DNA from: an uncultured Treponema sp.
Lineage (GTDB): Bacteria > Spirochaetota > Spirochaetia > Treponematales > Treponemataceae
Direction: 5' to 3'
DNA length: 33,986 nucleotides
NCBI GenBank assembly: GCA_947174385.1
Contig: CAMWIU010000007.1
Span: 1 to 33,986, forward strand
The stretch's first letter is position 1. Every line of letters begins with the position of its first letter. The notes below the pieces were generated by a model. It searched no databases. It saw only the letters and a program-made list of their open reading frames with translations, and was not told where the DNA came from. Positions 13,458-19,315 of this stretch are shown piece after piece. A program made the position numbers and the translations under genes.

Positions 13458-14141
13458 TTATTCCTCTTCGGCTGATTCTTCTGGCTCCTCATCTTTTTCT
13501 TTGTCGATGTAGATTCCGTGGACTTCCGCGCCGTACGAAAATTGCTCGCTCACCGCGCTGGCGGAAAAATCTTGTCCGCTCAAAGAAACGCCGTCTTTTT
13601 CTATCGTGATTTCCTTTCCGCGCTCGCCAACGAGTTGCTCCGTCTTGCCGTTCCATTTGAGGCTTTCGCCAGAAATGTTCACGTTGTGCGTTTCGCTTCG
13701 GATTTCGATTCCCTCGAAAAATTCGTAAAGCTCCGCGTCCGTGTCCGCGCGCATAAGACCTGCCTTTCCTGTGGCGGTCGTTTCGCCGTTCGCGTTTTTC
13801 GTTTCGAACTGGATTTTTTGCGCGAGGACTTTTCCCGAGCCTTTGAATTCTTCGAGCCGCTCGCTTGAGACTTGAGCCGTGGTCTGACCTTTTTCGATTC
13901 GCGAAAAACGCGCATCATCCAGCATCAGCTCGGGAACGAATTCTTTGCTGTCGGAAACCGTGCCGTAGTCCACGGAGCAGCCTGCGAAAATCGTGAAAAA
14001 AATCGCCGCAAGAAAAATGCGCGCGAGGTTTGAATTTCCTGCAAACGCGGCGTTTGTCCGCTTGCAAGACGCGCGACTTTTTTTCCATTTTTTCCAATTG
14101 AGAAAATTATTTTTTTTGTCGCGTGATTTCTCGAAATTCAT
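13458..14141 (-). CDS. lptC: LptC-like lipoprotein
   Basis: LptC connects the inner-membrane complex to LptA. The 227-residue product begins with a basic stretch, then a hydrophobic segment ending in the lipobox FAGC, so a lipid-anchored form is expected. The core shows the LptC/YrbK pattern of repeated short strands (GSGKVLAQKIQFETKNANG and VNISGESLKWNGKTEQLVG). An acidic Glu-rich tail ends the protein. ATG 14141 has AAAGGA just upstream and overlaps the pyrG stop by 4 nt (ATGA). Family assignment rests mainly on position and strand pattern, since LptC sequences are weakly conserved. Confidence 0.75.
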   Translation of the reverse strand: MNFEKSRDKKNNFLNWKKWKKSRASCKRTNAAFAGNSNLARIFLAAIFFTIFAGCSVDYGTVSDSKEFVPELMLDDARFSRIEKGQTTAQVSSERLEEFKGSGKVLAQKIQFETKNANGETTATGKAGLMRADTDAELYEFFEGIEIRSETHNVNISGESLKWNGKTEQLVGERGKEITIEKDGVSLSGQDFSASAVSEQFSYGAEVHGIYIDKEKDEEPEESAEEE

Positions 14142-15745
14142 TTTTTCCTTTCGGCTGCCGCCGCGATGAACGCCGTAAAAAGCGGATGCGGCTTTGTGGG
14201 GCGGGAAACGAATTCGGGATGAAACTGCACGCCGATTCCCCATGGATGATCTTTCCATTCAAAGGCTTCCACTTGTCCGTCGGCGGGGCAGGTGGCGGAA
14301 ACCGTCAATCCCAATTTTTCAAGCGCGTCCTTGTAGCGCGGATCGAAAGTGTATTTGTTACGATTCCTTTCCGAAATCACGGATTTTTTGTAGACCGAAT
14401 TTATCTTCGAGCCTTTTTCGAGTTTCACGTCGCTCGCGCCGAGCTTCATCAAACTTGCCGTGGAAAGTCCCGCCTGTTCTTCGGGAAGGCTCACCACAGG
14501 ATGCGTCGTGTTCTGAATGAATTCCGTGCTGTCCGCGTCTTCCCATTTCGCAAGATTCCGCGCGGTTTCGATTGCCATAAGTTGCATTCCCAAATCGATT
14601 CCCAAATACGGAATGTTTTTTTCGCGCGCGAATTTCACGGCGGAAAGAAGTCCCAAAAATCCTCGGTTTCCCATGTTTCCCGGAATGAGAATTCCGTCAA
14701 GGCCAGAAAGCTCGGTCGCGATGTCCTGGACGCGCTCCAAATTTTCCGCGTCGATTTTCTTGACGGCGAGTTCCGCGTTGCAGCCTGTGACCGCCGCGTG
14801 GAAAAGCGATTCTTTTACGCTCTTTATGCAGTCGTCGAGGAAGTCGCGCTTTCCGATAAGGCCGATCGTGATTTTCTTTTCGGGCGAATTGAGCTTTGCG
14901 AGAAAAGCCGTCCAAGGCTTGATGTTGCATTTCAGGTCGTCGCCGAATTTCAGCTTGCGGAGAATTTCGGAATCCACGCCTTGTTTGTGAAAAATCACCG
15001 GAAGTTCGTAGATTGATTTTTCGACGTCGGTGGAAGTGAACACCGCGCCTTCTGAAACATTGCAGAAAAGCGCGAGCTTTTTCTTGAGATTCTTTTCGAG
15101 CGGAATTTCGCATCGGCACAAAAGAATGTCGGGCTGAATTCCCGCTTCCTGCAATTGCTTCACCGAATGCTGGGTGGGCTTGGATTTCAATTCCTCGCCC
15201 GTGATCACTGGAACGAGCGCGAGGTGGACGCTCACCGAATTCCCTTTTCCCAATTCGTGGACGAGCTGCCGCGCCGTTTCCAAATAAGGAATCGCCTCGA
15301 TGTCGCCGACAGTTCCGCCGATTTCAACTATTACGATGTCCGCTCCGCTTTGCGCCCCGATGCTCAGGATGCGCCGCTTGATTTCGTCGGTGATGTGCGG
15401 AATCACTTGGACTGTGCGTCCGTTGTAGCGGCCGGCGCGTTCGTTGCGAATCACTTGGTCGTAGACTTTGCCGATCGTGATGCAGTTTTGGCTCGTGAGC
15501 TCCACGCTGGTAAACCGCGAGAAATTTCCCAAGTCCAAGTCGGTTTCCGCGCCGTCCTCCGTGACGAAAACTTCGCCGTGCTGGTACGGGCTTATGTTTC
15601 CCGCGTCAACGTTGATGTATGGGTCGCATTTTACGATTGCGATTTTCAGGCCATGGCATTCGAAGAGGCTCGCGATTGCGGATGAAGCCACGCCCTTTCC
15701 GAGGCTTGAGCAGACTCCGCTGGTTACCAAAACGTATTTACTCAT
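14138..15745 (-). CDS. pyrG: CTP synthase with a degenerate glutaminase active site
   Basis: CTP synthase aminates UTP to CTP. The synthetase domain (residues ~1-270) is fully conserved: SGVCSSLGKG, KCDPYINVD, ISPYQHGEVFVTEDGAETDLDLG, EIGGTVGDIE and KPTQHS. In the class I glutamine amidotransferase domain the nucleophile elbow reads GIDLGMQ, with Asp384 in place of the catalytic Cys. The oxyanion-loop PGGFG is PGNMG. His509 and Glu511 of the triad remain (QFHPEF). The expected consequence is loss of glutamine-dependent activity, leaving ammonia-dependent CTP synthesis. At 535 residues it is full length. It heads the operon with lptC, lptA and lptB. Confidence 0.93.
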   Translation of the reverse strand: MSKYVLVTSGVCSSLGKGVASSAIASLFECHGLKIAIVKCDPYINVDAGNISPYQHGEVFVTEDGAETDLDLGNFSRFTSVELTSQNCITIGKVYDQVIRNERAGRYNGRTVQVIPHITDEIKRRILSIGAQSGADIVIVEIGGTVGDIEAIPYLETARQLVHELGKGNSVSVHLALVPVITGEELKSKPTQHSVKQLQEAGIQPDILLCRCEIPLEKNLKKKLALFCNVSEGAVFTSTDVEKSIYELPVIFHKQGVDSEILRKLKFGDDLKCNIKPWTAFLAKLNSPEKKITIGLIGKRDFLDDCIKSVKESLFHAAVTGCNAELAVKKIDAENLERVQDIATELSGLDGILIPGNMGNRGFLGLLSAVKFAREKNIPYLGIDLGMQLMAIETARNLAKWEDADSTEFIQNTTHPVVSLPEEQAGLSTASLMKLGASDVKLEKGSKINSVYKKSVISERNRNKYTFDPRYKDALEKLGLTVSATCPADGQVEAFEWKDHPWGIGVQFHPEFVSRPTKPHPLFTAFIAAAAERKK

Positions 15746-15782: not shown

Positions 15783-15860
15783 GTGGGGGTTGCGGAGCGA
15801 ATTTGTTTGAAAAAAATCGAAAAAAAAACAAAAATAACTCTTTTCATATTTAATTTAATG

Positions 15861-15900
15861 TGTTATAATGATAAGATAAGATTTATTATCGCTAAATCTT
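15861..15900 (+). promoter_or_regulatory. fliF promoter -10 and leader hairpin
   Basis: TGTTATAAT (15861-15869) is an extended -10, and the -35 is weak (TTTTCA, 15841-15846). Just after the expected start of transcription, AAGATTTA (15878-15885) pairs perfectly with TAAATCTT (15893-15900) around a 7-nt loop. Unlike the leaderless genes nearby, fliF has a ~60-nt leader with a strong GGGAGG. I see no sigma-28-like site. Confidence 0.55.
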
Positions 15901-15933
15901 TGCAGAAAATATATTCGTTCACGGGAGGGCATG

Positions 15934-17730
15934 ATGAACGAATGGCTCAAAAAACTTGGCGACTCCGCGAAAGCGGCTTGGGCCAAGTGGTCCAAAATTC
16001 AGAAAGGCATAGTAATCGGACTCGTGGTGGTCGTGATAGTCGCGATCGTGGTAATGTTCCGCGTTTCATCTCGACCTTCGACAGTCCGGCTTTTTAACGC
16101 GCCTGTTACTGGCGAATCTCAATCTCAAATTCTTATGCGGCTTGATCAAGAAGGCGTTCGCGCCGATGTGAACGATGCGGGCTACATTTCCGTACCCGAC
16201 GAAGCGACGGCGATTCGTATGCGAGCCATTTTGTTCGAGGAAGGGCTTGTTCCCACCAATATTGATCCGTTCGCTGGCGTTTTCGATCGAGGCTGGTCCA
16301 CTACGGATGCCGATCAGAACGAAAAAATCAAGTTGGCGACGGAGCGGAAATTAAAGCAGCACATTGAATCGATTCCTGACGTTGCGAGCGCGCAAGTCAT
16401 GCTCGTTCTGCCTGAAAACCGGCTTTTCCGCGCCGACCAAAATCCTGTTACGGCAAGCGTGATTTTGACAGCGCGTCGTGGAAGCGACCTTCTTACGAAC
16501 CGCAGGCGCATTCGCGGAATTCAGGAACTCGTGCTTTCTGCCGTGGAAGGTCTCACCGAAGAAAACTGCGTCATTTCCGATTCCGAGGGAAACATCCTCA
16601 ACGATTTTGAAGGACAGGCGGATTTTGACAGGCTTGATTTGGTGAAAAAGCAGGAAAAGCTCATCCGCGACAGCGAGGCTTACTATCGCGCCCAAATTAT
16701 CAAGCCGCTTCAAAGCTATTTTACGGACGACCGCGTTCGCGATTTGAACATAAAAATCGACATGGATTTTTCCGAGGAAACGCGCGACTCCGTGGTTTAC
16801 CATCCGATTGAAATTCGTCCCGACAATCCCGACACGCCTTACGATGATTCGGAGTACCGCGACTATCTTCCGCGCTCAAGCCAAACTGTGACGCGCGAAT
16901 GGCAAGGAACGGGATTCAATCCGCAAGGACCTGCCGGCACGGAAGGGCAGAATCCGCCGGTTTATTCCGATATGTCAAATGTAATCGGTCGCCAAACTGA
17001 AACCGGCGTCACTCAAAACAACGAGCTAAATCAGGATACGATTCACCGCGTAGAAAGCCCGCGCTTTGGGCGCGTTACAGTTTCTGTGAACATTGACGGA
17101 CGTTGGGAAACCGAAAGGGACGGCGATGGAAATCCGATTTTTGTGAACGAAAAAAATTATGAAGAATTGATCGGCAGAATGAGACAGCGTTTCCCAGATT
17201 GGGACACGAACGAAATCACTCGCTCGAACGTGCGTCTGAGAATGGGAAGCGTCCTGAGAATTTATCAGCCTGTTCAGCACAATACGCTTGAGGATATCGC
17301 CGCGCTTATTCAGGGCGCGATTGGCTACGACCGCGCGAAAGGCTATATGGTCGTTGTCCGCAATATCGCTTTTGACCGCATCGCCGATTTTGAAAGCGAG
17401 GACAGCGCAATTCTCAAGGCGCGGCAGACACGCTTGACGATAATTTTGGTGCTCGTCGGACTTGCGATAATTCTCACGGTTTTCATTTTGTACCGTGTCA
17501 TCAGCCGCGAAATGGAACGCCGCCGACGTTTGCGCGAAGAGGAACTCCTTCGAAAACAGCAGGCCGCGCGCGATCAGGCTTTGTGGGAAGCAAAAGAAGA
17601 TGGCGTGGAAGTTACGATGTCCGTGGAAGAACGCCGCCGCGCGGAGCTTCAGGAAAACGCCATCGCGATGGCAAAGGAGCATCCGGAAGATGTCGCGATG
17701 CTCATCCGCACTTGGCTTATGGAAGAGTAG
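15934..17730 (+). CDS. fliF: Flagellar MS-ring protein FliF
   Basis: FliF forms the MS ring in the inner membrane, the base of the flagellar motor. Two membrane helices frame the protein, one near the N-terminus (IVIGLVVVVIVAIVVMF) and one before the C-terminal tail (LTIILVLVGLAIILTVFIL). The YscJ/FliF domain with LVLPENRLFRADQNPVTASV lies between them. The cytoplasmic tail ends HPEDVAMLIRTWLMEE, the segment that binds the FliG N-domain. I chose ATG 15934 over the adjacent ATG 15931 because GGGAGG (15923-15928) then lies at a usable 5-nt spacing. Length is 598 residues, slightly longer than E. coli FliF. FliE is not immediately upstream. Confidence 0.96.
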   Translation: MNEWLKKLGDSAKAAWAKWSKIQKGIVIGLVVVVIVAIVVMFRVSSRPSTVRLFNAPVTGESQSQILMRLDQEGVRADVNDAGYISVPDEATAIRMRAILFEEGLVPTNIDPFAGVFDRGWSTTDADQNEKIKLATERKLKQHIESIPDVASAQVMLVLPENRLFRADQNPVTASVILTARRGSDLLTNRRRIRGIQELVLSAVEGLTEENCVISDSEGNILNDFEGQADFDRLDLVKKQEKLIRDSEAYYRAQIIKPLQSYFTDDRVRDLNIKIDMDFSEETRDSVVYHPIEIRPDNPDTPYDDSEYRDYLPRSSQTVTREWQGTGFNPQGPAGTEGQNPPVYSDMSNVIGRQTETGVTQNNELNQDTIHRVESPRFGRVTVSVNIDGRWETERDGDGNPIFVNEKNYEELIGRMRQRFPDWDTNEITRSNVRLRMGSVLRIYQPVQHNTLEDIAALIQGAIGYDRAKGYMVVVRNIAFDRIADFESEDSAILKARQTRLTIILVLVGLAIILTVFILYRVISREMERRRRLREEELLRKQQAARDQALWEAKEDGVEVTMSVEERRRAELQENAIAMAKEHPEDVAMLIRTWLMEE

Positions 17731-17754: not shown

Positions 17755-17808
17755 TTCAACTATGTTGTTGCAACGAGTTTGTGAAAAATTTTGTTCGAGG
17801 AATTTTTT

Positions 17809-18201
17809 ATGGTCAATTTGGATTTTCAGAAAACTTCGCAGAGAAACATTCCGGGAAAGAAAAAGGCTGCGATTCTTTTTGGCGAGTTGGATTCTGCGGC
17901 GGCAGAAAGTGTCATGGACTATCTCAACGCGGAAGAAAAGAAAAAACTTTTGAAGGCGATGCGGAAACTTGGCACGAAATACAATCCAAACAATTCCGCC
18001 GAAGTTCAGGACGAAATTTTCGTGCTTGAGACTTTAGAAAGATTCGGAAAAGTCCGAAACATATATAAGGACGTCGCTTCGGAAAGAAAGGCTTTTGAAA
18101 AGGTTTCGGCAACGCCCGCCGCGAAAGTTAGGCGCGCGCTCAACGACTATCCGGACAGAGTTGCTTCCGTTTTAAGCGCGTGGCTCAAAAAAGAAGAATA
18201 G
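17809..18201 (+). CDS. Small FliG-N-domain-like protein with a FliF-tail-like end
   Basis: I do not know a named family for this 130-residue protein. Residues 17-85 (KKKAAILFGELDSAAAESVMDYL and following) align by eye with the FliG N-domain of the next gene (RQKAAIFLVSVGSDVSSEVMKHL). The last ~24 residues (NDYPDRVASVLSAWLKKEE) resemble the FliF tail that binds FliG (EHPEDVAMLIRTWLMEE). It therefore seems to carry both halves of the FliF-FliG interface. ATG 17809 has GAGGA 7 nt upstream. Its position between fliF and fliG supports a motor role as an adaptor, spacer or assembly inhibitor. It could be a degenerate fliG copy, but the frame is intact. Confidence 0.7.
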   Translation: MVNLDFQKTSQRNIPGKKKAAILFGELDSAAAESVMDYLNAEEKKKLLKAMRKLGTKYNPNNSAEVQDEIFVLETLERFGKVRNIYKDVASERKAFEKVSATPAAKVRRALNDYPDRVASVLSAWLKKEE

Positions 18202-18223: not shown

Positions 18224-19315
18224 ATGGCAGAAGAAGCTGCCGCGGCAAAGCCTGCGGCAAAACCTCCGCTCAAGCCAGCCAATGCAGGCGGCGGCAAAAA
18301 AGGTTCCAAGGATTTTAAAAGTCTCACTGGTCGGCAAAAGGCCGCGATTTTTCTTGTTTCCGTGGGAAGCGATGTTTCTTCCGAAGTGATGAAGCATTTG
18401 CGCGAAGATGAAGTGGAAACTTTGACATTCGAAATCGCGCGTCTTGAAACTATTGACGCGGAAATAAAAGATCAGGTTTTGGAAGAATTCCAAGACTTGA
18501 TGAACGCGCAGAATTTCATCACCACGGGCGGCATCGACTACGCGCGCGAATTGCTCGAAAAATCTTTGGGAAGCCAAAAAGCCATCGACATCATAAACCG
18601 CCTCACTTCGAGCCTTCAAGTGCGTCCGTTCGACTTCATCCGCCGCACCGACCCTGCGCATTTGCTCAACTTCATCCAGCAGGAATATCCGCAGACAATC
18701 GCGCTTATTTTGGCGTATTTGGAGCCGGCGAAGGCGGCAATCATTTTGCAGAATTTGCCCGAAGAAATGCAGCCGGAAGTTTCTAAACGCCTTGCGACGA
18801 TGGACCGCACTTCGCCTGATGTTTTGCGCGAAGTGGAGCGCGTTTTGGAAAAGAAACTTTCTACTCTTTCTTCCGAAGATTACACGGCGGCGGGCGGCGT
18901 AGAATCAATCGTCGAAATTTTGAACCTCGTCGATCGTTCTTCCGAAAAGGCCATCATCGAGGCTTTGGAAGAGGAAGATCCGGATTTGGCGGAAGAAATC
19001 AAAAAGCGCATGTTCGTTTTCGAAGACATCGTTATGCTCGACGACCGCTCGATTCAGCGCGTGCTTCGCGAAGTGGACACGCAGGAATTGGCAAAAGCCC
19101 TCAAGAGCGTGGACGCGGAAGTTCAGGACAAGATTTTCCACAATATGTCCAAACGCGCCGCGAGCATGCTCAAGGAAGACATGGAATTTATGGGACCTGT
19201 CCGACTCAAGGACGTGGAAGAAGCCCAGCAGAAAGTCGTTTCTACGATCCGCCGCTTGGAAGAAAAGGGCGACATCGTAATCGCGCGTTCGGGCGAGGAC
19301 GAGCTTGTAAGCTAA
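18224..19315 (+). CDS. fliG: Flagellar motor switch protein FliG
   Basis: FliG is the rotor protein that interacts with MotA and couples ion flow to torque. It has 363 residues with an extra Ala/Lys/Pro-rich N-terminal stretch (about residues 1-30). The N-domain (RQKAAIFLVSVGSD), the middle EHPQ-type motif (here EYPQTIALILAYL) and the C-terminal torque domain with charged helix (DDRSIQRVLREVDTQELAKALK) are all present. GAGGGG precedes ATG 18224. Spirochaetes often carry two fliG genes. Association with fliF-fliH-fliI suggests this is the motor copy. Confidence 0.96.
   Translation: MAEEAAAAKPAAKPPLKPANAGGGKKGSKDFKSLTGRQKAAIFLVSVGSDVSSEVMKHLREDEVETLTFEIARLETIDAEIKDQVLEEFQDLMNAQNFITTGGIDYARELLEKSLGSQKAIDIINRLTSSLQVRPFDFIRRTDPAHLLNFIQQEYPQTIALILAYLEPAKAAIILQNLPEEMQPEVSKRLATMDRTSPDVLREVERVLEKKLSTLSSEDYTAAGGVESIVEILNLVDRSSEKAIIEALEEEDPDLAEEIKKRMFVFEDIVMLDDRSIQRVLREVDTQELAKALKSVDAEVQDKIFHNMSKRAASMLKEDMEFMGPVRLKDVEEAQQKVVSTIRRLEEKGDIVIARSGEDELVS

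Follow-up and report, generated by a model that had tools for sequence, protein, structure and literature searches.

The window--that is, the whole stretch of 33,986 nucleotides analysed here, corresponding to positions 1-33,986 of contig CAMWIU010000007.1 (assembly GCA_947174385.1) from an uncultured Treponema sp. of the family Treponemataceae--harbors a small gene, termed here X, between the flagellar genes fliF and fliG (Table 1). On the 3' side of fliG lie fliH-, fliI- and fliJ-like genes, as judged by eye and from conserved gene order. The best promoter-like match in the stretch is located at 15841-15869, just 5' of fliF, and a scan of the stretch for promoter-like matches found no forward one between fliF and X; hence X probably is co-transcribed with both fliF and fliG. 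What lies 5' of fliF is, by eye, a divergent gene resembling CTP synthase (14138-15745), in the place where other loci harboring X within the operon (L050, L051 and L068-L070) have flgB-, flgC- and fliE-like ORFs; thus the flagellar operon is split in the window.

Table 1. Coordinates of gene X, of its component parts and of the two adjoining flagellar genes within the window.
Feature	Position	Strand	Description and basis
fliF (MS-ring)	15931..17730	+	TIGR00206, Pfam; own tail HPEDVAMLIRTWLMEE intact
Shine-Dalgarno AGGA	17798..17801	+	7 nt 5' of the gene X ATG; from sequence
gene X	17809..18201	+	ATG to TAG, 130 aa; FliG-D1-like domain and FliF-like C-terminal tail
FliG-D1-like domain of X, residues 12-85, four helices	17842..18063	+	Pfam FliG_N, hhalign, Foldseek/VIA to 5tdy, 5wuj, 8wiw, 8umd
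Variable linker of X, residues 86-102, at the place of FliG D2	18064..18114	+	low model confidence, no D2 profile match
FliF-tail-like C-terminus of X, residues 103-130, motif [N/Y]PDxxAxxLxxWLxxE	18115..18198	+	tail profile finds FliF C-termini
fliG (fliG-2 type)	18224..19315	+	Pfam: N, M and C domains complete; TIGR00207 496 bits

The N-terminal half of X resembles FliG. The Pfam FliG_N model matches residues 14-69 at 28.2 bits (cut-off 25) and likewise matches all 38 aligned relatives of X; a profile-profile alignment pairs residues 12-85 with FliG residues ~32-104 (probability 97%, E 6e-11); and a profile of the X family, when compared to the PDB, finds the Thermotoga maritima FliG_N chain 5tdy_B, which is from a FliF:FliG complex, at E 1.9e-10. 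In the numbering of the Salmonella C-ring, FliG subdomain D1 comprises residues 1-67 and D2 residues 73-99 (PMC11087270); on our own reading of the alignment, the likeness of X to FliG appears to involve D1 only. Searches for other FliG components found none: the best match of a D2 profile to 110 X sequences has an E-value of only 0.19, that of a FliG_M profile to members of the X family 0.046, and there is no Pfam match in X to FliG_M or to FliG_C. The TIGR00207 (FliG) model scores X at 14.6 bits, far below its cut-off of 226.7, Pfam finds in X neither of the YscJ/FliF ring-building domains (PF01514 and PF08345), and NCBIfam contains no model dedicated to X.

Structural models, which were built from X sequences alone (i.e., without FliG sequences), point to the same domain. 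For the window's X the model is of moderate confidence (pLDDT 67.9, falling below 50 at linker residues 89-101); Foldseek ranks 5tdy_D first with a probability of 0.98, and VIA returns 8wiw, 8umd, 5wuj, 5tdy and 8umx at Z 7.0-8.0, followed by 8ucs (also FliG) at 5.4 and then by a fall to 2.6. The model of a shorter relative, L056, is more confident (pLDDT 82.1, pTM 0.74) and matches 5tdy with a probability of 1.00 at 2.0-2.1 A (for 5tdy_B, 2.0 A over 64 residues), with FliG in all six of its best VIA rows. For a helical domain, Z values of this size are moderate, and what carries the predicted match is its agreement with the sequence homology together with the gap to the next row. Within the L056 model the tail helix has a pLDDT of ~90, and this confident placement of the protein's own tail suggests that X may close on itself. 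Among the FliG and FliF chains listed by VIA and Foldseek, no match spans the X tail, which is uninformative, given that in the solved complexes the tail either comes as a chain of its own or stands ahead of FliG-N. A covariation analysis between the D1 region and the tail of X showed no enrichment, with 23 pairs as against 38 expected, but was underpowered due to too few sequences.

The C-terminal tail of X, in turn, resembles that of FliF. A profile of this tail (residues 104-130 of the window's X) was searched against 14,880 ORFs from the window and 38 loci. The X proteins rank first, followed, in register, by the extreme C-termini of 21 FliF proteins at E 0.001-0.03--one of these, at L043, being a row without a label that fits FliF in its position and in its FliF-tail score--and thereafter by noise starting from E 7.8; no FliG was matched among these ORFs. 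In the reverse search, with a FliF-tail profile, X tails rank first behind FliF itself (E 0.011 and up). When searched against the whole 2.3-Mb genome from which the window derives, the tail profile finds X at 6e-10 and, as its sole significant non-self match, the last 25 residues of FliF (17653-17727; E 0.0045), with no further match in that genome below E 0.36. Against the PDB, FliF, with a match that extends to residue 565 of its 569, ranks second at E 0.28 and is the sole flagellar match, the first rank being a designed repeat protein matched in weak pieces only. Across the phylum FliF tails mostly read PEDVAxLIRTWLxE or nearly so, X tails read NPDxIAxxLxxWLxxE, and W125 is retained in 97% of the 110 unique X sequences. 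Judged by these comparisons, the resemblance of X to FliG_N and its resemblance to the FliF tail both lie above chance. The latter, though significant, is short; because it extends over ~22-25 residues only, it is compatible with homology and with convergence alike.

X thus is a relative of FliG subdomain D1 that bears a FliF-like tail and that lacks the FliG D2, M and C regions. An earlier note, made from the letters of this stretch, had correctly placed X along with its frame and ribosome site; its claim that the last 20 residues are FliF-like is borne out, as is the fold similarity to FliG-N that it proposed to seek by structure prediction, which is found for both models of X alone. The FliG N-domain likeness that it saw by eye over residues 17-85 is likewise real, but it covers subdomain D1 and not the domain as a whole.

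X is patchily distributed within the family. Counting matches to short ORFs, 113 of 274 Treponemataceae genomes contain X, at 114 loci in all; of these genomes, 99 belong to the window's genus and 14 to three other genera. X is undetectable in the remaining 161, which include a genome of 1.1 Mb. (A match covering FliG_N only in one genome classed as X-negative, G200, was rejected as X, inasmuch as it belongs to a longer, FliG-like N-terminus that the end of a contig interrupts.) All but four of the X-positive genomes (109/113) also have a FliG match, and these four are incomplete. X lies between fliF and fliG at 40 of the 114 loci--conserved copies such as the earlier note proposed to search for; at two others (L023 in G102 and L026 in G092) it precedes a fliG1-like gene by ~200 nt; and the other copies occur elsewhere or at contig ends, in varied neighbourhoods. 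One genome (G210) contains two different dispersed X genes (L140 and L145), and a dispersed copy (L045) is also present in a cultured species, T. socranskii ATCC 35536. Because roughly two thirds of the copies lie outside of the flagellar operon and because 161 of the 274 genomes have no detectable copy, X is not essential to this type of motor.

Spacing within the operon reflects these arrangements: the gap between fliF and fliG is 0-18 nt in 30 X-negative genomes and in 23 sampled genomes with dispersed X, as compared to 364-503 nt in seven sampled cases with X in the operon. FliF retains an intact tail in all 60 genomes sampled, which implies that X supplements the interface with a further copy rather than replacing it. 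Beyond the family, no X was seen among the matches listed for a 296-genome sample of the phylum; the listed matches outside Treponemataceae are FliG-length ORFs (mostly 334-402 aa, a few 182-293 aa) that are not X-like. Moreover, at 28 of 30 FliF loci from across the phylum fliG directly follows fliF, leaving no room for X (one gap being 280 nt), and at the remaining two the locus or contig ends first.

X is under purifying selection. The reading frame is intact at all 114 loci, and dN/dS is 0.05-0.23 over the 15 pairs with usable divergence, a range similar to that for fliF (0.03-0.17) and higher than that for fliG (0.01-0.05); in two pairs of nearly identical sequences it is 0.10 and 0. Of the outcomes that the earlier note named as speaking against its proposal, frameshifts in related genomes thus do not occur among the copies found, none of which is broken, but absence is common. 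On a tree of X proteins, the position changes 6 times from operon to dispersed or back, as compared to 31.7 when positions are shuffled; copies in the operon are scattered among the deep branches; and both interface motifs are conserved even in dispersed copies. These 6 changes indicate that X has probably moved several times, with both of its modules kept and its presence remaining patchy.

Many Treponema genomes also encode additional FliG paralogues of 224-321 aa that have the M and C domains without FliG_N--for instance, L282:998-1729 (-), L282:4104-4778 (-) and L283:719-1684 (+)--and that therefore are the complement of X. In a sample, such paralogues are weakly commoner in genomes with X (11/30) than in same-genus genomes lacking X (2/18); the window's genome has none. 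The last of these examples has, at the place of FliG_N, what looks by eye like a RelB/DinJ antitoxin-like stretch (MAKIEFEIDDEIAGKLGEFTSSTGIPVETLCSLFVRKVASEQ).

What might such a protein do? FliG-N folds jointly with the FliF tail, changing its shape as it does so (PMC6079021); within the Salmonella ring, the D2 subdomain of one FliG completes the D1 of the next (PMC11087270). The proposal put forward here, to which we would give about an even chance, is that X works as an accessory protein in the flagellar rotor of Treponema, where it would cap or plug the joint between the MS-ring and the C-ring or regulate the assembly of that joint. The X tail would either fold back into the groove of its own D1 or swap with a FliF tail or a FliG-N pocket, in both cases giving rise to a closed, self-complemented D1:FliF-C (i.e., FliG-N:FliF-C) unit. 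This unit could then accept the D2 of a neighbour, or could take up a FliF tail or FliG-N pocket that is free; lacking D2, M and C, it could neither extend the ring, nor bear torque, nor bind FliM. With no D2 to pass on, and with neither M nor C, X would serve as a cap, plug or regulator and not as a torque-bearing subunit. The earlier note considered both capping and chaining of the contact: the former, or plugging, is favoured and the latter disfavoured, since X is without the D2 that completes the neighbouring D1 in Salmonella.

Alternatively, X may be an assembly chaperone or a competitive inhibitor--that is, a soluble protein that masks FliF tails, FliG-N pockets or both until the ring is ready, or that limits the number of FliF-FliG complexes, and that is absent from the finished motor. 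This is a serious possibility, albeit a less probable one: X possesses the two halves needed for binding, is devoid of domains for binding FliM or building the ring, and at 40 loci is encoded between its two putative partners. FlhF, which holds FliG and blocks FliM/N (PMC11236974), is a precedent for the regulation of FliF-FliG assembly. Dispersed X genes, however, would need to be coordinated separately with the flagellar genes.

It is unlikely, by comparison, that X has left the motor altogether, its FliG-N/FliF-tail module being reused with some other partner, such as FliG1 or a non-flagellar system, and its site between fliF and fliG being a relic. The ~72 of 114 copies situated outside of the fliF-fliG operon, with their varied neighbours, and the two copies adjoining a fliG1-like gene are what such a history might leave behind; yet the few positional changes on the tree, the presence of operon copies on its deep branches, the retention of both motifs in dispersed copies and the co-occurrence with FliG in all but the four incomplete genomes argue against it. 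A role for X as a stoichiometry adapter is a rather speculative idea, and one that we consider improbable. The C-ring is 46-fold in Borrelia (PMC6663468) versus 34-fold in Salmonella (PMC11087270), and in a spirochaete C-ring wider than that of enterobacteria there may not be a FliF tail for every FliG-N pocket; X would then supply surrogate FliF tails and D1 units that fill or cap the vacant pockets, thereby tuning ring size or switching in those Treponema lineages that have it.

Two further readings concern what X is rather than what it does. That the X tail instead corresponds to PQTIALILAYL, the helix with which the middle domain of FliG begins, X being merely a C-terminally cut FliG, is very improbable: the two motifs do have P..(I/V)A..L in common, but the tail profile picks out FliF C-termini in register and no FliG, the FliG_M profile attains no better than the E-value given above among X members, and most X copies end a few residues past the tryptophan, as FliF does, whereas FliG_M of the window's FliG has no tryptophan there; this reading was rejected. 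Hardly credible at all, and likewise rejected, is the earlier note's third possibility, a decayed and inert copy of fliG, or else a duplicated piece of that gene, for while X is indeed a partial FliG-N homologue beside fliG, its frames are intact throughout, its dN/dS is comparable to that of fliF, and its conserved FliF-like tail is absent from fliG.

If X is an accessory protein of the rotor, as is proposed here, it would act at a joint of some importance: it is through the FliF-tail:FliG-N joint that the C-ring passes torque on to the MS-ring, and the way in which the numbers of the two rings are matched is debated (33/34 in Salmonella; a 46-fold C-ring in Borrelia). With both halves of this joint in one chain, their order reversed and the remainder of FliG missing, X provides a natural probe of how the joint is formed, capped and regulated; for many Treponema species of the gut and mouth, it also lengthens the list of flagellar parts by one conserved, uncharacterised gene. 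A search of the literature for Treponema proteins that consist of FliG-N only, or for truncated forms of FliG, turned up nothing relevant. The parts of X are all known; of their arrangement, no description was found in the searchable literature.

Three known systems illustrate this point. X is akin to the FliG N-terminal domain (PF14842; complexes 5TDY and 5WUJ) in the sequence and fold of D1, helices 1-4; unlike that protein, it lacks D2, FliG_M and FliG_C and has a conserved GELG motif and a FliF-like tail of its own. With the C-terminal cytoplasmic tail of FliF it shares, in register and at the very C-terminus, the motif [H/N]PxxVAxxLxxWLxxE; in X, however, this tail is joined to a FliG-N-like domain rather than to the periplasmic ring-building domains of FliF. 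Finally, FliF-FliG fusions (constructs such as 8Z4D) resemble X in that both halves of the interface reside within one chain, but in X the order is reversed--with FliG-N first and the FliF tail last--and the chain consists of the two interface pieces only.
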